Positions 1,275 to 27,485 of a DNA stretch of 27,485 bases are shown here, one piece after another; within the stretch, counting starts at the first letter, position 1; every line of letters starts with the position of its first letter. The stretch comes from a virus, in IMG/VR virus record IMGVR_UViG_3300046533_000883, positions 1 through 27,485 of that record; one strand, written 5' to 3'. The notes below the pieces were generated by a model. That model was not told the DNA's origin and searched no databases. It was given only the letters and a program-made list of their open reading frames with translations. The position numbers and the translations under genes were made by a program.

Positions 1275-3251
1275 ATGGCCGTCACCGAGCGGGTCAAGCA
1301 GTATCACATCGTCAAGTCGTTCAAGGGGCTGAACACCAAGGCCAACCGGACGGCGATCGACCAGAACGAGTTCTCCTGGCTCGAGAACGCGATGCCGATC
1401 GGCGACAGCAATCTACGCATCGTGCCGACCGTCTCGGCCTCGGTCGACCTCCTGCGCGCGCCGGTGGCGTGGGACGCGAAGGTCACCAACCTCACCTCCG
1501 ACAATGTCGAGCTCTCCGACTATGTCTTCGCGTTCGAGATCAACGGCGAGCTCCAGGCCTACAACCTGACGCACACGACGCTGATCACCATCGCGCCGGC
1601 CGGGACGTTCAATCCCGCAGGCGCGGAGATCACGCAATGGAAGAACGAGCGCATCATCATCGGCGACCCGACCAAGGGCCTCTTCTCCTGGGACGGCAAC
1701 AACCTCGTCTCGATCGGCTCGGTCGGCTTCATCGGCATCACCGCGCACGGCACCGGCTACACCAGCGCCCCGGCCGTGATCATCGGCGCGCCCGGCGACC
1801 CGCATGGCCAGCAGGCGGTCGGCGAGGCGACCATCTTCGGCAACGGCGTCTCGAGCGTGTTCCTGACCCAGCCCGGCACCGGCTACAGCACCCCGCCCGC
1901 CGTCAGCTTCTCAGGCGGCGGCGGCTCGGGCGCGACCGCCATCGCCAGCCTCATCACCTTCGCGACCGGCACCCTGCAGCTTGTCGTCGCGGCCGGCGGG
2001 GCCGGCTACACCACGACCCCGACGATCACCATCACGGGCGGCGGCGGAACCGGCGCGGCGGCGACCCCGATCGTGTTCGGCAATTCCCTCACCTCGGTGG
2101 TGATGACCAACCCCGGCACCGGCTACACCGATGCCTCGACCGTGGTGGCGACGGTGACCGGCGGCGGCGGGTCGGGTGCGGTGCTGACCCCGGTGCTGAC
2201 CACCGACCCGATCAGCGATGTCGCGACCTTCTCGGGCCGCGTCTGGGTGTCGCAAGGCCGCACCATCACCTTCAGCGCCGCCGGCAGCTACAACGACTTC
2301 ATCTCGGTCTCGGCGGGCAATTTCGTCGCCACCGACACGACCTTGCACGGCAACATCAACGCGCTGCTCGCGGCCAACAACTTCCTCTACTGGTGGGGCG
2401 CGGACTCGATCAACGTCTTCTCGGACGTGCAGGTCAACGGCACCACGGGCGCGACCGTCTTCACCAACACCAACATCTCGGCCTCGATCGGCACCGAGCT
2501 GGTGCACGCGATCTTCCCGTATTTCCGGTCGATCCTGTTCATGAACCGCTACGGCGTCTACGCGCTGGTCGGCTCGACCACGACCAAGTTGTCGGACGCG
2601 CTCGACGGCATCTTCACGCTGATCGACTTCACCAAGCCGGTCACGGGCGGGCAGGTGCTGATCTACAACATCCTCTGCGCCGCGTTCAATTTCTACTACA
2701 TGGACCCGGTGCGGGGGACGATCCCGCTGCAGGCCGTGTTCTTCGACAAGAAGTGGTTCCTGACCAACCAGGGCGCGATCGACCTGACCACCAGCATCCC
2801 GTTTCACGGCCTGATCCATCTCTACGGCACGGGCGGCACCAACCTCGTCAACCTCTATACCGACCCCTTGAGCGCGATCTTCTCGCGCACGCAGATGGCG
2901 CTCAGTCATATCGGCGATCCGGTCAGGGACAAGCAGGCGCTGAAGTTCGGCATCGAGGTGACCTCGGCCATCGGCGTGGCGCTCGAGGCGACCATCGATT
3001 CGGAGATCCGGCAGAGCCCGCTCTATCCGTTCAACACGGTGATCAACTGGGTCAACAACAACGGCCAGGTGATCGGCTGGACCAACAATGTCGGCACCAC
3101 GCTCTACTGGCTGGGCGGCTACGGCTACCAGCTGCTCAAGACCGACGCGCAGCAACTGGGCAAGTATCTGGGGCTGACGATCACCTCGAACGCGGCGCAG
3201 TTCACCCTCAACACCGTCGAGTACGAGCTCGAATATGGAGCGCGTTTTTAG
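1275..3251 (+). CDS. Tail nozzle / tail tubular protein B-like (P22 gp10, T7 gp12 type)
   Basis: 658 residues. The opening segment (FKGLNTKANRTAIDQNEFSW followed by LENAMPIGDSNLRIVPT) is the hallmark 'GLNT...ai.d.efs.leN......lr.rpG' start of phage nozzle / DNA-stabilisation proteins that close the tail end of the particle. Residues ~159-305 carry four tandem copies of a ~41-residue unit beginning G-T/A-G-Y-T/S at 159, 201, 242 and 281, each followed by a V-x-I/F strand and three by a GGGG-S/T-GA turn. This is an inserted beta-rich repeat domain. The remainder is beta-propeller-like. The gene follows the adaptor with a 3-bp gap and is followed without gap by the fibre gene, which fits a neck-nozzle-fibre series. 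The family role is known; assignment of this member rests on motif and order. Confidence 0.7.
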   Translation: MAVTERVKQYHIVKSFKGLNTKANRTAIDQNEFSWLENAMPIGDSNLRIVPTVSASVDLLRAPVAWDAKVTNLTSDNVELSDYVFAFEINGELQAYNLTHTTLITIAPAGTFNPAGAEITQWKNERIIIGDPTKGLFSWDGNNLVSIGSVGFIGITAHGTGYTSAPAVIIGAPGDPHGQQAVGEATIFGNGVSSVFLTQPGTGYSTPPAVSFSGGGGSGATAIASLITFATGTLQLVVAAGGAGYTTTPTITITGGGGTGAAATPIVFGNSLTSVVMTNPGTGYTDASTVVATVTGGGGSGAVLTPVLTTDPISDVATFSGRVWVSQGRTITFSAAGSYNDFISVSAGNFVATDTTLHGNINALLAANNFLYWWGADSINVFSDVQVNGTTGATVFTNTNISASIGTELVHAIFPYFRSILFMNRYGVYALVGSTTTKLSDALDGIFTLIDFTKPVTGGQVLIYNILCAAFNFYYMDPVRGTIPLQAVFFDKKWFLTNQGAIDLTTSIPFHGLIHLYGTGGTNLVNLYTDPLSAIFSRTQMALSHIGDPVRDKQALKFGIEVTSAIGVALEATIDSEIRQSPLYPFNTVINWVNNNGQVIGWTNNVGTTLYWLGGYGYQLLKTDAQQLGKYLGLTITSNAAQFTLNTVEYELEYGARF

Positions 3252-4241
3252 ATGCCGACGCTACCGATCACGGTCCCGAACGTCTTCGCCAACGCGACCA
3301 GCAACATCGCCTTGTCCTTGCTGGATGCGGATTTCCTCGCGGTCTCGCAGGCGATCAACGGCATCGGCAACGGCAGCACGCCGCTGACCAACGTCACAAT
3401 CACGGGCGGCACGCTCACCAACACGACGCTCAACAGCCCCGCGATCAGCGGCGGGTCGATGACCGGCACCAACCTGTCGAACGTCACGATCACGGGCGCT
3501 GCTACGCTGTCGCAGCACGGCCAGTGCCGCCTCATCTACAGCAACGCCAACCAGATCATCCTGCATCCCTATAACGGGCAGGCGATCCAGATCGCGGGCA
3601 TGATCTACGCCATTCCGCCGAACGGCGTGAGCCTCACCAACGCCGGGATGATTGCGAACACGCTCTATTACATCTACGCCTTCGTCAGCGGCGGGGCACT
3701 CGCTCTGGAGTTTTCCACTAACGGGCATGTCGCCTCCCTGGACCCCGGCAATTACGGCGTCGAAGTCAAACAGACCGATGGGACGCACTCGCTGGTTGGC
3801 ATGATCAGAACGACCGGCGCTAGTGGATTCTCCGACACCGATACGTTTCGCGGCGTGGCCTCCTGGTTCAACCGCCGCAATGTTTCGACCTATCTCAACG
3901 GCCCTGTCAACGGCTTCTCGACCTCGAACGCCTGGATAGATTTCAGTCTCGGCACCACCACCTCCATGCTCTGGGGCGATGAGGCGCTCTATGCCTTCAC
4001 GTCGGTGTACGCAGTATCGAGCGCCACCGCCGAAAATCTGGCAATAAGACTCACGTTTAACGGCAACCCGGCGGGGCAACAAGGCGCAGCGTACCTGCCC
4101 ATCGGTGGAGCCGGCACGGCGGTCGATACCTATAACTTCATGCCTGGAGAAGCCCCTATCACCGTGGGTGTGCAAGGCCTCACGCCCGGCACAGATCCAA
4201 AGAATTGTGTTGTCACCCTCACCACAATAACGCGGCAATGA
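3252..4241 (+). CDS. Putative tail fibre / receptor-binding protein
   Basis: 329 residues starting immediately after the nozzle stop codon. Residues ~40-85 contain strand-turn repeats (NVTITGGTLTNTT, NSPAISGGSMTGTNLSNVTI) of the type that form a triple beta-helix or collar in trimeric fibres. Then comes a beta-rich domain with aromatic patches (MIYAIPPNGVSL, LYYIYAFVSGG). The C-terminal half (from base ~3650) looks less GC-rich and less biased in codon use than its neighbours, as often seen in exchanged receptor-binding tips. I infer an adsorption role from position and repeat pattern; no enzymatic motif is visible. Confidence 0.6.
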   Translation: MPTLPITVPNVFANATSNIALSLLDADFLAVSQAINGIGNGSTPLTNVTITGGTLTNTTLNSPAISGGSMTGTNLSNVTITGAATLSQHGQCRLIYSNANQIILHPYNGQAIQIAGMIYAIPPNGVSLTNAGMIANTLYYIYAFVSGGALALEFSTNGHVASLDPGNYGVEVKQTDGTHSLVGMIRTTGASGFSDTDTFRGVASWFNRRNVSTYLNGPVNGFSTSNAWIDFSLGTTTSMLWGDEALYAFTSVYAVSSATAENLAIRLTFNGNPAGQQGAAYLPIGGAGTAVDTYNFMPGEAPITVGVQGLTPGTDPKNCVVTLTTITRQ

Positions 4242-4260
4242 CGCGGAAGGACGCCACGAC

Positions 4261-4587
4261 ATGAGCAGCAACGCCTTCAGCCCCACCGGCAACACGGTGG
4301 TCTTCACCGCCAACGTCGCCGCACCCACCGCGGTGCAGGTGCCTGGCGCAGGCGGCGGGCAGTACCGCGTCGTCAACGCAGGCACGTCGGATGTCTATAT
4401 AGGCAGCGGGTTGACCGCAGCAGCGGCCAATTCGAGCGCGGTGATCATCGGCACCAGCAACGCCACGACCTTCCTGATCTTGGGGCGCACGGTCGAGGTG
4501 TTGAGCCTCGCGCCGAACCTGTTCTTCACCGGGATCACGGCGGCGGGCGGCTCGTCGGTGCTGATCACGCCCGGCGATGGGAGCTGA
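4261..4587 (+). CDS. Small beta-rich virion protein
   Basis: 108 residues; ATG preceded by GGAAGG at good spacing. Pattern of short Val/Ile/Thr strands with Asn/Gly turns (for example VVFTANVAAPTAVQVPG and YRVVNAGTSDVYIGSG) and no Cys. The segment 'QYRVVNAGTSDVYIGSG...' is typical of small proteins beside tail fibre genes in many phages. Similar in composition to the truncated protein at the left edge of the window. Probably a virion component; exact role unknown. Confidence 0.55.
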   Translation: MSSNAFSPTGNTVVFTANVAAPTAVQVPGAGGGQYRVVNAGTSDVYIGSGLTAAAANSSAVIIGTSNATTFLILGRTVEVLSLAPNLFFTGITAAGGSSVLITPGDGS

Positions 4588-4589
4588 CC

Positions 4590-5069
4590 ATGACCTTGCG
4601 CGCCGTCAGCGACACCGGCACCAGAGGGCAATATCCCGGCACGACCACCAACGACAACGCCTTGCCGGGCATGATCGGTGAGTATCTGCTCTCCGACATC
4701 CCGAAAGTGTCATCGGTCGGGCTGACGAACAACGTCACCGCCAATATCGCAACGATCGCGCTCACGGCCGGCGATTGGGATGTATGGATCAATGGGGCGT
4801 TGATGGGCGTCACCGCCACCGCTCTCGGCAATGCAAATTTTTACATTTCGTCAACCTCGCTCGGTGGCAACAACACGAACGGAGCCGTCGCGCGCCTCGC
4901 ATACAACCCCGCCACCGCGCCCTTCGCCAGCGGTGACTTGACGCTGGACATTGGCCCGTGGCGTGTGAGCTTGGCCGCTCCCGCAACCTATTATTTCACC
5001 GCCTTGTGCGGCTTTGCCAGCGGCGCATTGAGCGCTTATGGCTGCATCCAGGCGCGGCGGGCACGCTGA
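4590..5069 (+). CDS. Tail-associated beta-sandwich protein
   Basis: 159 residues with ribosome binding site GGGAG before the ATG. The stretch LTNNVTANIATIALTAGDWD is a recurrent motif of phage tail fibre and tail tip proteins (strand-turn followed by 'LtaGdWdv'). It is followed by a hydrophobic Gly-rich core and a short basic tail (ARRAR). Its stop codon overlaps the next start (5069). Most likely a fibre accessory or receptor-binding protein. This is inference from the motif and the neighbourhood. Confidence 0.55.
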   Translation: MTLRAVSDTGTRGQYPGTTTNDNALPGMIGEYLLSDIPKVSSVGLTNNVTANIATIALTAGDWDVWINGALMGVTATALGNANFYISSTSLGGNNTNGAVARLAYNPATAPFASGDLTLDIGPWRVSLAAPATYYFTALCGFASGALSAYGCIQARRAR

Positions 5070-5413
5070 TGGACATGAGCGCGCTGTCATCGGCCGAGTT
5101 CGGCAACGTCGAGTCGCTCAACGCGATGCTGTTCGAGAACGGCATGCAGCATCAGCTCTTCCGCGACACCGTGTTCCGCCTGGGCCAGAGCGTGCCTGCC
5201 TATCCGCTGATGGAGGCCGATGTCGACAACCTCGACGACTGGCTGATCGCGCATCAGGACGAGCATCAGGCTTATGCGTCGCTCCTGGGCCTCAACAACC
5301 CGTTCAATCTGCTCGATGTCGACTGGAACGACCAGGATCAGTTCTACGATTGGATTTCGTCGCATTTGTTCATCCACGAGACGATTGCGAGCGCCTTGGG
5401 GGTCGTCGGATGA
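5069..5413 (+). CDS. Small acidic protein of the tail block, unknown function
   Basis: 114 residues starting at the ATG that overlaps the previous stop (ATGGACATGAGC; a second ATG two codons later is an alternative start). Strongly acidic and hydrophilic with clustered Asp/Glu/His and aromatic residues (NLDDWLIAHQDEHQAYASLL, VDWNDQDQFYDWISSH); predicted all-helical. Ends by overlapping the next gene in ATGA fashion, so it is translated in series. I do not recognise a family. Confidence 0.65.
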   Translation: MDMSALSSAEFGNVESLNAMLFENGMQHQLFRDTVFRLGQSVPAYPLMEADVDNLDDWLIAHQDEHQAYASLLGLNNPFNLLDVDWNDQDQFYDWISSHLFIHETIASALGVVG

Positions 5414-5892
5414 GCCCTCCAAACCCGCCCCCGCAAGGCCCGCAGCAGCAGGATCTGTCACAGAACCCGCAAGCGGTTCAGCAATTCAACGAGACCGCGG
5501 AGATCCTCTGGGGCAGCGCGCAGAAAGAGGGCTTGCCGCCGGGCATGACGCGCGATCGATATCTCGGCGCGGTCGCGCAGAAGCTCAAGCAAGGAACGCG
5601 GCTGGCACAAATTGGCAAGACCGTGTTTTTATTGACGCCAATAGAGCCGCTCGTGCTGGAGTTGCACACCTCGACATTGGAGGACGGCAAGGCGCTGGTG
5701 CAGCGCTATGTGGTTGCAGCAAAGACGGCCAAGCAGCAGGGCATCAAGAAGATCATCAGTTACGCGGATAGTCCTGCGTTTGTGAAACTTGCGAAGGCGA
5801 CCGGATTGCCCGTGAAGATCACGCAAGAGCCGCACATGGACGAGATCACCGGGCAAATGAAGCCGATGTACAAGTTCGAGCTGGACCTCTGA
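5410..5892 (+). CDS. Internal-virion-associated protein resembling T7 gp13 / GNAT fold
   Basis: 160 residues; ATGA overlap with the previous stop and GGGGGT upstream. Residues 1-25 are a Pro/Gln-rich tail. From ~60 a compact alpha/beta domain follows the order of GNAT-like phage proteins: strand (TVFLLTPIEPLVLELHTS), helix (KALVQRYVVAAKTAKQQG), strand (IKKIISYAD), then 'SPAFVKLAKATGLPVK', which parallels the T7 gp13 pattern 'N-s-x-h-i-r-f-l-k-t-i-G-a'. It stands just before the large internal-virion genes, as gp13 stands before gp14-16 in T7. The relationship is inferred from memory of that pattern and needs a profile search. Confidence 0.5.
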   Translation: MSPPNPPPQGPQQQDLSQNPQAVQQFNETAEILWGSAQKEGLPPGMTRDRYLGAVAQKLKQGTRLAQIGKTVFLLTPIEPLVLELHTSTLEDGKALVQRYVVAAKTAKQQGIKKIISYADSPAFVKLAKATGLPVKITQEPHMDEITGQMKPMYKFELDL

Positions 5893-5893
5893 C

Positions 5894-8008
5894 ATGCCCG
5901 TTCTCGCGATCATCATCCCGATTGCCGTCGACCTCGCGGTTACGACGGTAGCGGCGGATCTGATCGCCACGATCGCGGTCAGCACCTTGGTGATCGATGT
6001 TGCGGCGGGCGTCATCGGCGGCATTGCCGGCGGCATCGTGTCGGCGGAACTGACTGGCGGCGATGTCGGCAAAGCGGCGCTGCTGGGTGGGCTTGGCGGC
6101 GGCTTGAGCGGCGGCCTGGCCGCGGCAGGCGGGCTCACGGGCGGCATCGTCAAGACTGTTGCCAATGCGACGAACCTGCCGACTGGCGTCGTCAACACGG
6201 TACTGAAGGCGGCGGAAGGCGCAGGCATCGGCGCGGGCCGGGCCTTAGCGACCGGCGGCAATATCGGGCAGGGGGCGCTGGCGGGCGGGATCTCGGGCCT
6301 CGGCAGCGGCCTCGGCGGTCAGTTCGATTACGCCGGCATCGCAAAGGATACCGGCCTGCCCGAGAATGTCGTGCAGGGCGTGCTCAACGCCGCGGGCAAG
6401 GCGGGGTTCGGGGCGGGCGCTGCGGCGGCCACGGGGCAGGATGTCGGGCTCTCGGCGCTGTCGGGCGCGGCGCAGGGCGCGCTGCCGCCGGCAATCAAAG
6501 CGGCATTTGATGGAGCAAAAGCGGCTTACAACGCGGCGTTTGCCCCGGCTCAGGACGCTGCGACCCAAGCGGCGCAGGATGCCTACGCCCAGATCGTCAC
6601 CCCGGCGCAGAACCAACTCAACGCGCTCGAGCAGCAGGGTCAGGACTATCTCGATAGCTACAAGGCGGGCTTAACGGATCAGGTCCAGGCCGCGCAGGAC
6701 AAATATCAGAGCGCCATCGACAGCGTGAACAGAAATGTCGGCGCGCAGCTGCTGGCGGCGGGGCGGCTCGACGATTTCACCAAGGTCGGCTTCAACTATT
6801 CCCAAGCGGAGCAGTCGATCGAGCTATGGCAAGCATACAATCAGGCGAAAAGCGATTTTCAAACGGTGACGCAGCAGACCGCCACCGAGTGGAACTCGAT
6901 CCAGCAGATGGTGCAGCAGCAATTCGACCAAGCAGCCCAGCCTCTGGTGCAGACGATCCAGAACGCGGGCAGCGACCCGAGCGTGCAGCAGGCCTACGAC
7001 ACGACGCTGCAGCAGAACCTCGCCCCGGCGCAGGAGAAGCTCGCTGCGGCCGAGGCTGCGGTGCAACAGGCCACCGACGCAGCATCGGGCGGCCCGAAAG
7101 AAGGACCGGCCCCGAGCTATCAGTATTACTCGACGTTCGACCAACTGAACGCCGCGTTCCCCGGGCAAAACTTCCCCGGTGACGTCATCCATCTCTCGCA
7201 GCCGGATTCGTCCGGTAATCCCGCCGGCTACTATGTGATGCCGCCGGGAGGTAGCCTCGCCGGGACCGGCGATGTGGCTCCCCCGGTCGCAGGCGGCGGC
7301 GGCGCAGGCGGCGCGCCCAGCCCGGCACAAGGCGCGACCACCGGCCCGGATACGACCGGCGGCGGCGCGACAGCGGCCGGCAGCACGCCAACCACCAGCC
7401 GCGATCAGCAGCTGCTCAATCTCACCGGCCTGTCAAAAGACACCGCGCCGCAGCAAGGCGTGAGCACGACCAACCTCGATTTCGGCACCTTCAGCGCGCC
7501 CGTCCCGAGCACGCACGACCAGCAGATCCGCACCCTCGCCGGCCTCTCGACCGCGCCGACGGCCAGCCAGACGGCGGCCGCGGCGGCCGATAGCGGCGGC
7601 AGCACCGCGGGCACGGGCACCTCGCCCGGCACCGGCAGCGGCACCGGCACGACCTCGGGCGGCGGCGGCACCGGGACTGGCGCAGGCGGCGCAGGCACCG
7701 GCACGGGCGCAGGCGGCACCGACGGGACCGGCGGCGGGGGCGAGGGCGGCACCGGCTCGGGCGGCGGCAAGACCCTCGATTTCGGCGCGGGCACCATCCC
7801 GCTGCCGCAGCGGCGGCCGGCAGGCACCACCGGCCCGGCCGTGCCCGACATTCCCGGCCCCGGCTCGCAGGCGCTGTCCCAGGCGCTCGCGGCCCCCGCG
7901 ATCGGCTATTCGCCGGGGGGAGACGTGTTCGGCGTACTGGGAAAACGTACTCCGGTCTGGAACAAGAGTTCGCTGCGCGCCGAGGACACCAGCGGGGTCA
8001 GCGGGTGA
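5894..8008 (+). CDS. Large Gly/Ala/Gln-rich internal virion (ejection) protein candidate
   Basis: 704 residues, one base after the previous stop. Residues 1-80 are very hydrophobic with Gly-zipper spacing (VIGGIAGGIVSAEL, GGLGGGLSGGLAAAGG), suited to membrane insertion. Residues ~100-215 contain two related blocks beginning 'TNLPTGVVNTVLKAAEGAG' and 'TGLPENVVQGVLNAAGKAG', a clear internal duplication. Residues ~225-400 are Gln/Ala-rich and probably coiled-coil. Residues ~565-640 are almost pure Gly/Thr/Ser/Ala (GTGTGAGG repeats). This architecture suits proteins stored in the capsid and ejected into the host envelope. No catalytic motif such as a lytic transglycosylase is visible. Role inferred. 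Confidence 0.6.
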   Translation: MPVLAIIIPIAVDLAVTTVAADLIATIAVSTLVIDVAAGVIGGIAGGIVSAELTGGDVGKAALLGGLGGGLSGGLAAAGGLTGGIVKTVANATNLPTGVVNTVLKAAEGAGIGAGRALATGGNIGQGALAGGISGLGSGLGGQFDYAGIAKDTGLPENVVQGVLNAAGKAGFGAGAAAATGQDVGLSALSGAAQGALPPAIKAAFDGAKAAYNAAFAPAQDAATQAAQDAYAQIVTPAQNQLNALEQQGQDYLDSYKAGLTDQVQAAQDKYQSAIDSVNRNVGAQLLAAGRLDDFTKVGFNYSQAEQSIELWQAYNQAKSDFQTVTQQTATEWNSIQQMVQQQFDQAAQPLVQTIQNAGSDPSVQQAYDTTLQQNLAPAQEKLAAAEAAVQQATDAASGGPKEGPAPSYQYYSTFDQLNAAFPGQNFPGDVIHLSQPDSSGNPAGYYVMPPGGSLAGTGDVAPPVAGGGGAGGAPSPAQGATTGPDTTGGGATAAGSTPTTSRDQQLLNLTGLSKDTAPQQGVSTTNLDFGTFSAPVPSTHDQQIRTLAGLSTAPTASQTAAAAADSGGSTAGTGTSPGTGSGTGTTSGGGGTGTGAGGAGTGTGAGGTDGTGGGGEGGTGSGGGKTLDFGAGTIPLPQRRPAGTTGPAVPDIPGPGSQALSQALAAPAIGYSPGGDVFGVLGKRTPVWNKSSLRAEDTSGVSG

Positions 8009-20337: not shown

Positions 20338-20393
20338 GGCCGCTGCCGGGGGACTGACAGGCCCCCCTACCAGCCTCGGCGGCGGCCTTTTTT
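20338..20393 (+). terminator. Intrinsic terminator after the PDQGLPG gene
   Basis: Outer stem GGCCGCTGCCG (20338-20348) with CGGCGGCGGCC (20377-20387), one G-U pair, an inner G-rich/C-rich hairpin, then six T at 20388-20393. It isolates the next gene from upstream transcription. Confidence 0.75.
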
Positions 20394-20412
20394 GAGAGAG
20401 AGAGGAACGCCT

Positions 20413-21150
20413 ATGAAAAACCTGGCACTTGCCGCGCTTGCCCTCGCCGGGGCCGGCCTCGCCGCCACCCCGGCCCACGCCGTCCTGCAATTCAGCGCCA
20501 ATATCGGCGGCACCACTTTCAGCTGCGTCGATAACGCCGCCTGCGACACCAACCCGCTCGTCGGCACCATCACCACGGGGACGCAGACATTCGGCGCGGT
20601 CACCTTCCTGGGATCGGCCCAGACCCAGACCACGGGGGCGAGCAACACCCTTGACACGACCTCATTCCAGATCACCAATTCCGGGACTGCCGCCGTCGCG
20701 GTGACCATCGCCGTCGGCGGCACCAGCTTCACCGGGCCCGTGACCAGCTTGTCCGAATCAGGCTCAGGCACCTGGCAGAACGCCGCCGGCTCGACCATCG
20801 ACCTGACCTACTATGCCGACAACGCCAACACCCAGGGGGCGGGCACCCCGACGGATCATCCCGGCATCCTGCAAGCCGACAGCGGCCTCCTCACCGCCGC
20901 CGGCCTCACCGACAGCTTCAACTTCAACCACGTCTCGGGCTTCATCGACCCGGATCTCTATTCGATGACCCTCGAGACCACCGGGACGATCGCGGGCGCG
21001 GTCGGTGGCGTGGCCTCCCAGCTTACGGGCCGCTCGCAAGCGATCGTCGCGACGGCGGTGCCCGAGCCCGGCACCTTGGGCCTTCTCGGCGCAGGCCTGA
21101 TCGGCCTCGGCCTCGTCGCCTGGCGTAAGCAGGGTCATGGCATGACCTAA
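20413..21150 (+). CDS. Exported PEP-CTERM sorting-signal protein
   Basis: 245 residues from ATG 20413 (GAGAGGA upstream); an in-frame ATG at 20392 would only add seven residues before the signal peptide. Residues 1-23 are a Sec signal peptide ending AHA. The mature part is Thr/Gly/Ser/Asn-rich and beta-like with one Cys pair (SCVDNAAC). The C-terminus has the PEP-CTERM triad: VPEP at 216-219, a hydrophobic helix (LGLLGAGLIGLGLVAW) and a basic end (RKQ). PEP-CTERM proteins are cut by exosortase and usually placed on the cell surface or in exopolysaccharide; a host exosortase would be needed. The gene is bounded by terminators on both sides, like a moron. A PEP-CTERM protein is unusual phage cargo. 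Confidence 0.85.
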   Translation: MKNLALAALALAGAGLAATPAHAVLQFSANIGGTTFSCVDNAACDTNPLVGTITTGTQTFGAVTFLGSAQTQTTGASNTLDTTSFQITNSGTAAVAVTIAVGGTSFTGPVTSLSESGSGTWQNAAGSTIDLTYYADNANTQGAGTPTDHPGILQADSGLLTAAGLTDSFNFNHVSGFIDPDLYSMTLETTGTIAGAVGGVASQLTGRSQAIVATAVPEPGTLGLLGAGLIGLGLVAWRKQGHGMT

Positions 21151-25409: not shown

Positions 25410-25757
25410 TCATGCCGCGCGCTCCAACAAGGCGAGCGCCTGCGCGACATCGCCGCGCGCCAGCGCTGCGCGCGCCGTCGCCGCGATCTTGCGCCAGTCC
25501 GGCCGGACAACCGCCGCCGCCCCCCCTACGGGGGCCCCAGCCGCCGGCACGATCGCAGCGCCCTGCCATTCGGCATGGCCGACCGCGACGCGCGCGCCCG
25601 TGACCTGCTCGATCAGCCGCTTGCCGGCCTCGGGATCGACCGGCTTGCGCTTGTCGCTCCAAAACGACATCCGCACCTGCTCCCCCGTCTCCAGCACGGC
25701 GACATAAACCGCCGCCGGATAGCGACCCTTGTTTCGGAAAGTCGAAAGTTTCGGCAT
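25410..25757 (-). CDS. 115-residue alpha/beta protein after leader element A
   Basis: ATG at 25757 with GGAG eight bases upstream inside the conserved leader; an ATG at 25775 (MNGVD) would lie in the leader and is less likely. Residues 1-35: KLSTFRNKGRYPAAVYVAVL then ETGEQVRMSFWSDKRKPVDP, a small beta sheet with basic loops. The rest is Ala-rich helix (DWRKIAATARAALARGDVAQ). I do not recognise a family. It is one of two genes carrying the same leader, which suggests shared post-transcriptional control. Confidence 0.65.
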   Translation of the reverse strand: MPKLSTFRNKGRYPAAVYVAVLETGEQVRMSFWSDKRKPVDPEAGKRLIEQVTGARVAVGHAEWQGAAIVPAAGAPVGGAAAVVRPDWRKIAATARAALARGDVAQALALLERAA

Positions 25758-25870
25758 CGGATCTACTCCGTTCATCGGGTCGGCACTGCGCCGCTCCCTC
25801 CTATGCCCTTAAGGCTCGCAGGGGTCACCCGTGCGAGCCGGTAAGGGGAATGATGCGCCGCCTACCCGCG
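25755..25870 (-). other. Leader element copy A upstream of the gene starting at 25757
   Basis: About 115 nt closely similar to the element at 26307-26420. Shared blocks are the 16 bases ending in the GGAGTAGATCCG-ATG start, an 18-base block around CTTAAGGGCATAGGAGGG, and CGGGTAGGCGGCGCATC at the far end. The central hairpin is GGCTCGCA (minus strand 25839-25832) with TGCGAGCC (25820-25813). Likely an RNA control element of the early transcript. Confidence 0.65.
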
Positions 25871-25894
25871 GGAGACACTTCTCCCGTTTCGACC
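25869..25894 (-). other. RNA hairpin with GGTCGAAA box (copy 2)
   Basis: In the leftward transcript, GGTCGAAA (25894-25887) is followed by CGGGAGA-AGTG-TCTCCCG, a 7-bp stem with a 4-base loop. Same layout as the hairpin at 25380-25404 with different stem bases, so pairing rather than sequence is kept. It directly follows the 25908-26186 gene and precedes leader A. Confidence 0.55.
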
Positions 25895-26290: not shown

Positions 26291-26306
26291 TGTCGTGATT
26301 TTCCGT

Positions 26307-26420
26307 CATCGGATCTACTCCGCACGTTCGGGCGACACTGTGCCTGCCCTCCTATGCCCTTAAGCCTCGCTACGGTCGCCCGTGCGAGGCTCGAAGGGAA
26401 CGATGCGCCGCCTACCCGTG
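26307..26420 (-). other. Leader element copy B
   Basis: Second copy of the ~115-nt leader. Central hairpin GCCTCGC (minus strand 26390-26384) with GCGAGGC (26370-26364), holding an inner ACGG/CCGT pairing. Compared with copy A, the stem bases differ on both sides in a way that keeps pairing. It ends in the same GGAGTAGATCCG-ATG start at 26309. Confidence 0.65.
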
Positions 26421-26627
26421 CGTCAATCCACTCTCGTATCCCGTCCATCCCGTCGGCATCCCGATCGCCTCCAGTGTCGCCGTGAAATGAATGATCGCCT
26501 TGTACCCCATGCGCCCGATGTCATCGGCCAGCGCTACCGCCTCCGCACTCGACAGCACCGGCAAACACTTGCGCCACTTCGCACTCTCCGTGCCGCCCGT
26601 GCGATAAACTACCGTGAATGTCTCCAT
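26412..26627 (-). CDS. 71-residue early protein, unknown function
   Basis: ATG at 26627 with AAGGGA upstream. Small alpha/beta pattern: strand METFTVVYRTGGTESAKWRK, helix LSSAEAVALADDIGRMGYKA, strand IIHFTATLEAIGMP, ending TGWTGYESGLTHG. The start and the 'ALADdI.RMGYKAiIh' helix-strand unit look like small phage proteins of hypothetical annotation. Its stop lies inside the far end of leader element B. No catalytic motif. Confidence 0.65.
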   Translation of the reverse strand: METFTVVYRTGGTESAKWRKCLPVLSSAEAVALADDIGRMGYKAIIHFTATLEAIGMPTGWTGYESGLTHG

Positions 26628-26953: not shown

Positions 26954-26982
26954 ACTGTACCGTGTGCAATCGTGGGCGTCAA
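26954..26982 (-). promoter_or_regulatory. Early leftward promoter
   Basis: On the minus strand TTGACG (26982-26977), exactly 17 bp, then TACAGT (26959-26954). It precedes the small early genes ending at 25046. The same -35 box and spacing occur in the promoter at 25006-25034. Confidence 0.65.
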
Positions 26983-27301
26983 ATCTTTTCTTCGCACGAT
27001 GCAAATTATTTTCGCTGCCACGCTGTCTATATAGCGCTGCCGGAAACCCCGCATTTTCTGGTGGCGGGGGAACCGTGGGGTGCACGCGCACCTGCGCTCG
27101 CGGTCCCAATGCCGCAGCCAGCGCCCCGTGCCAGGCAATCGTTGCTCGAGGCCGACCGTCGGCCGGCGGCGACAACTGCCGCCGTGGAGTTGTTGGCAGC
27201 TGCTATCCGCCCAGCGGCCCCACTGGCCCTCGATCGTTGACCAGCTCCTACAATGCTGCGGTGGATCTGTTGCTGCCGGCCGATCGTAGGCATGGGTACC
27301 A

Positions 27302-27339
27302 CTATAGGAGAAACCTATCGTGCTATAGGCAAAACCTAT
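27302..27339. promoter_or_regulatory. Two phased operator-like palindromes
   Basis: ATAGG-AGAAA-CCTAT (27304-27318) and ATAGG-CAAAA-CCTAT (27325-27339), each 15 bp with 5-bp half-sites, 21 bp apart, i.e. two helical turns on the same face. Together they form a direct repeat of the 17-bp unit CTATAGG-N2-AAACCTAT. This arrangement fits cooperative binding of a repressor or initiator. Confidence 0.6.
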
Positions 27340-27381
27340 TTCTTAACCTTTCGAGAACAAGATACACTTAGACCGTATCTG

Positions 27382-27415
27382 ATTAGGTACCCTCTGGTAT
27401 CCTCATTAGGTACCC
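27382..27415. repeat. GGTACC box array in the loop of the inverted repeat
   Basis: ATTAGGTACCC at 27382-27392 and again at 27405-27415 (23 bp apart), with a related GGTATCC at 27396-27402 between them. A further GGTACC closes the left arm (27295-27300). The last copy runs into the right arm of the inverted repeat. Confidence 0.5.
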
Positions 27416-27485
27416 ATGCCTACGATCGGCCGGCAGCAACAGATCCACCGCAGCATTGTAGGAGCTGGTCAACGATCGAGGGCCA

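Follow-up and report, generated by a model that had tools for sequence, protein, structure and literature searches.

The hairpin telomeres of N15-type phages are palindromes that carry no unpaired centre of 110 nt and they need a telomere resolvase. In chloroplast genomes, small inversions are associated with hairpins in which a short loop lies between inverted-repeat arms. Long perfect interrupted palindromes are expected to be unstable because hairpins are attacked by SbcCD-type nucleases. The chloroplast inversions are the subject of a review (PMC12371153) and, in E. coli, a 246-bp interrupted palindrome was found to form hairpins and thereby to give rise to inverted duplications in cells lacking SbcCD and RecA (PMC3315005). 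For Kaumoebavirus, a 102-bp hairpin has been described whose two ends are both joined to the terminal repeat, on either of its strands, and which occurs in both orientations (PMC7909422).

Here we describe an inverted repeat at the end of a phage contig which is likely to be a real DNA element, either a control or an end region able to form a hairpin, conserved in a genus, and not a one-off assembly error. The window, the whole stretch of DNA that was analysed, is a phage record of 27,485 bp from IMG/VR. As the first-pass annotation had reported, its last 77 bases (the second arm, 27409–27485, minus strand) repeat the left arm (27224–27300, plus strand) in perfect inverted form, matching its reverse complement at 77/77 positions. 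The two arms are separated by 108 nt, and the contig stops inside the second arm. Since only about 1e-38 exact inverted pairs of 77-mers are expected by chance in 27.5 kb, the pair of arms is not fortuitous. The GC content is 61% in the arms and 39% in the loop, against roughly 65% for the contig. Searches of phage and plasmid collections with the arm found nothing, and a search with the loop yielded chance-level matches only. A 20-bp core within the left arm (27256–27275; CTGCGGTGGATCTGTTGCTG) gave two single matches in bacterial genomes, apparently by chance.

The genes of the window are those of a tailed phage. Plus-strand genes for adaptor and virion proteins are followed by genes for an Erf-type annealing protein and a YqaJ exonuclease, and then by minus-strand genes encoding methyltransferases, HTH proteins and small proteins, extending up to about 26.9 kb. 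One virion protein (1275–3251) carries tandem glycine-rich repeats of the GTGYT / GGGGSGA type, each of about 41 residues, and the plus-strand gene at 20392–21150 encodes a predicted secreted protein with a PEP-CTERM-like tail (VPEPGTLGLLGAGLIGLGLVAWRKQ), unusual in a phage. Three neighbouring direct repeats (25749–25890 and 26301–26440), spaced about 551 bp apart and 76–83% identical, are apparently duplicated leaders of small minus-strand genes.

The same structure was found in two relatives. G001 (IMGVR_UViG_3300046727_000437, 28,876 bp), reached via a small gene near the window end, is colinear with the window over nearly its whole length, mostly at 80–95% identity, and G005 (IMGVR_UViG_3300046718_000648, 25,675 bp), reached by a YqaJ protein search, is also colinear and ends at the same place. 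The three contigs, all from soil phages, derive from different metagenomes (3300046727, 3300046718 and the window's own). In each, a non-palindromic loop, of 108, 112 and 112 nt in the window, G001 and G005, respectively, is enclosed by perfect inverted arms, which measure 77, 65 and 50 bp. All three genus contigs that reach the site end within the second arm, at 32, 38 and 23 nt past the 20-bp core, which is identical in all of them, and the left ends of these contigs are spread across about 2.5 kb. The first-pass suggestion that the 77-bp overlap is the signature of a de Bruijn assembler with k=77 is not supported because no single k fits overlaps of 77, 65 and 50 nt. Inverted repeats of at least 20 bp with loops of up to 600 nt were absent from the other loci, about 210, among the 219 fetched, distant relatives included. 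In 20 further genus or family contigs and two complete genomes, the sole inverted pair was one of 16 bp whose copies lie 278 nt apart.

The arms differ between genomes and are perfect inside each genome. The outer 52 bp of the left arm (27224–27275) are identical in the window and G001, which differ in the inner arm and in the loop, and about 18 extra inner bases are present in both arms of the window. Between G001 and G005, 7 mismatches and some indels occur over the 50-bp arm, all mirrored within each genome; for example, the inner arm reads GGGGGCTA in G001 and GAGTGCTA in G005, with matching TAGCCCCC and TAGCACTC. Three readings of this identity can be considered: copying maintains it between the arms, both arms represent a single duplex end, or library preparation generated the second arm from the first. 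Each of these needs something special at the site.

The loops of G001 and G005, which share the boundaries GCTA|112|TAGC, are identical at 111 of 112 positions and lie in opposite orientations relative to the flanking arm. The loop of the window (27301–27408), AT-rich and at the homologous position, is a diverged version in the G001 orientation; only 6/500 shuffles scored as well, compared with 297/500 for the opposite orientation. Such a difference in orientation would be expected from real inversion or from genome ends of the flip-flop kind. However, the reverse complement of an arm-loop-arm sequence is the same sequence with its loop flipped, and an assembler supplied with hairpin or fold-back reads may therefore print either orientation; thus the difference between G001 and G005 is no proof of inversion within a population.

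Within the loop of the window there is a 17-nt direct repeat, consisting of operator-like dyads CTATAGGAGAAACCTAT (27302–27318) and CTATAGGCAAAACCTAT (27323–27339), 21 bp apart. The copies match at 15/17 positions, which was reached by none of 300 shuffles, and each has the form ATAGG-n5-CCTAT; the number of dyads alone is unexceptional (27/300 shuffles). A scan limited to sigma-70-like sites detected no promoter in the loops of the window, G001 or G005.

The only good sigma-70-like site of the region, in a pattern scan of the whole window, is the putative early promoter TTGACG-17-TACAGT (26954–26982, minus strand), located 240 bp outside the repeat; the scan thus gives no sign of operators flanked by promoters. 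The sequence around the site is conserved in G001 (53/53 identical) and G005 (45/47). It is predicted to fire leftward into the minus-strand genes, and so the repeat lies upstream of the promoter and is not its leader. Between promoter and repeat, G001 carries an HNH endonuclease gene, and a GP88-family gene occurs there in both G001 and G005 (L002, 480–1133 and 2099–2956; L220, 633–1430); no counterpart was found in the window. A hairpin-rich noncoding flank (27065–27223) runs into the left arm, with positions 27065–27275 being 94% identical to G001; relative to shuffles it folds better on the plus strand (z -2.8) and not on the minus strand (z -0.1). A duplicated early leader RNA of the put/nut-like antiterminator kind was considered and rejected, given the position of the arms upstream of the promoter, the minus-strand folding value and the result for Rfam, where no match reached the gathering score and a single hit with E<1 fell far below its own cut-off. 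A coding function of the arm region was likewise discarded because single-base indels shift the frames between relatives.

Judged by synteny only, the repeat is probably internal to the genome map, every contig stopping in the second arm. Among family members with about 55–65% protein identity, contigs that start elsewhere cross from the minus-strand early genes into the plus-strand terminase block, and two GenBank records of relatives are circular with the syntenic region inside the circular map. The terminase-portal-capsid side is carried by L012, which has the same sequence as the window for 5,538 bp, and by L092. The latter, which alone among the contigs extends well upstream of the terminase, has 620 bp ahead of its first plus-strand gene, and no arm is seen at its left end. 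Between terminase and portal, L012 (2–2731) and L092 (~3950–7033) carry thiamine-enzyme subunit-like pieces and glycosyltransferase-like and radical-SAM-like genes, names that derive from reading the translations only, and all or part of this stretch is found in L092–L097 at about 96% identity.

Compared with the described systems, the phage repeat resembles chloroplast small inversions in having a short loop that appears in opposite orientations in close relatives, but it occurs in a phage, its perfect arms are much longer and the site is kept across divergent genomes. In its arm-loop-arm layout and total size (262 bp in the window) it is similar to the E. coli palindrome; the latter occupies a single chromosomal test site whereas the phage repeat is natural and conserved. 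It shares with N15-type telomeres the presence of a palindromic element in a phage genome, but differs in its loop of about 110 nt and in that no telomere resolvase (PF16684) was matched in six genus records, which are incomplete genomes. Flip-flop hairpins of pox, asfar-like and chlorella viruses also show a loop of about 100 nt, attached at both sides to one arm and seen in both orientations, with contigs ending there. Here, in contrast, the loop is not incompletely self-paired, the maps of relatives are circular and no second terminus was seen. A pox-like self-paired loop was rejected because the loop, aligned with its own reverse complement, scored no better than shuffles.

The explanation that we favour, with a probability of about 0.5, is that the repeat is an internal, noncoding interrupted palindrome, upstream of the leftward early promoter, in which the arms are kept identical and the loop flips. 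Two perfect inverted arms, each at least 50–77 bp long and separated by about 110 bp of AT-rich loop, would pair as a hairpin or cruciform. One arm would then be copied from the other, by hairpin-templated repair or by recombination, producing their identity, and exchange between the arms would flip the loop. The Erf-type annealing protein and the YqaJ exonuclease would be available for such recombination, and the genus also encodes a DUF1064 protein with a match to a family of Holliday junction resolvases. All three would suit the task, although enzymes of these kinds are common in phages. The AT-rich loop with its dyad sites may constitute the core of a replication origin or of early control, a role suggested by its position, AT content and dyads. 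Short-read assemblies would stop at the repeat because each arm reads alike into and out of the loop, and beyond the second arm the genomic map probably leads on to the terminase genes, as it does in the relatives. Several points count against this explanation: no contig extends past the second arm, assembly symmetry can yield either loop orientation, arms of 77, 65 and 50 nt suggest contigs whose reads gave out and not a repeat with good coverage, and the six genus records contain no recombinase match.

A rival explanation is that the second arms, which are short and of unequal length, arose by fold-back during library preparation or amplification, seeded by a genuine inverted repeat that flanks the loop and is shorter (6–8 bp or more). 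This inner repeat would then be real and conserved, and the long second arm would have been copied from the first at end repair. Chimeric reads of this type, with the intervening sequence inverted, have been reported at natural inverted repeats in sonication libraries (PMC10908179). The ambiguity of loop orientation would follow automatically, and the inner boundaries are indeed short palindromic or complementary blocks (GGTACC; GGGGGCTA/TAGCCCCC). However, chimeric reads make up only a minor share, so that the assembly should follow the true continuation, yet 3/3 contigs stop here and the loop or arm was not met with a different continuation in any other contig. Moreover, a real inner repeat, changing in concert on both sides of the loop, is still required in each genome. 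We regard this explanation as possible but rather unlikely.

The stopping of the contigs of all three phages at one place would also be expected at a true genome end in the form of a terminal hairpin, covalently closed or self-priming, whose loop has flip and flop forms. The perfect identity of the arms within each genome would then be automatic, the early promoter points inward from the end, the DUF1064 protein could be cited as a candidate enzyme, and the loop, joined at both sides to the same arm in both orientations, recalls the 102-bp hairpin ends of Kaumoebavirus (PMC7909422). Against this stand the relatives with circular records or with contigs crossing the syntenic region, a loop that is not an imperfect palindrome and the lack of a telomere resolvase family match in the six genus records. 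Terminase-driven packaging, moreover, normally generates its own genome ends. We consider a genome end in a tailed phage improbable on this evidence. In its specific form, where this genus of tailed soil phages would have a linear genome, or a linear replicative stage, ending in a covalently closed hairpin whose loop, about 110 nt long, is of the flip-flop type, the proposal is a long shot; closed-hairpin termini of the flip-flop kind are described in large eukaryotic DNA viruses and we know of none in tailed phages.

Very improbable, in our estimate, is a site-specific invertible switch, in which a recombinase acting on the inverted arms would flip a promoter or operator segment and alter expression. 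The invariant 20-bp core of the arms, the operator-like dyads and the opposite loop orientations in the two relatives are compatible with such a switch. Nevertheless, on the phage side, the six genus records contain no match to the tyrosine (PF00589) or serine (PF00239) recombinases, although a host enzyme may act instead, the loop carries no sigma-70-like promoter, the conserved one lying outside, and site-specific flipping would leave the inner arms free to diverge. A random, one-off fold-back or amplification chimera is rejected because the structure is conserved at the same site in three samples, with the same boundaries in two. The first-pass annotation had offered a terminal hairpin, an inverted terminal repeat, an origin, an invertible switch or amplification fold-back; the common site of the 3/3 contigs and the inverted loop of two of them support a structure that is real and whose loop can flip or be exchanged.

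A structure that is expected to be unstable is nonetheless kept up in several phages with diverged arms, which points to a function in the start of replication, in end formation or in early control. The repeat explains the break of all three genus contigs that reach the site, and it serves as a warning that such contig ends are not necessarily assembly errors. If the repeat is a terminus, tailed phages would possess a new means of terminating or replicating the genome.
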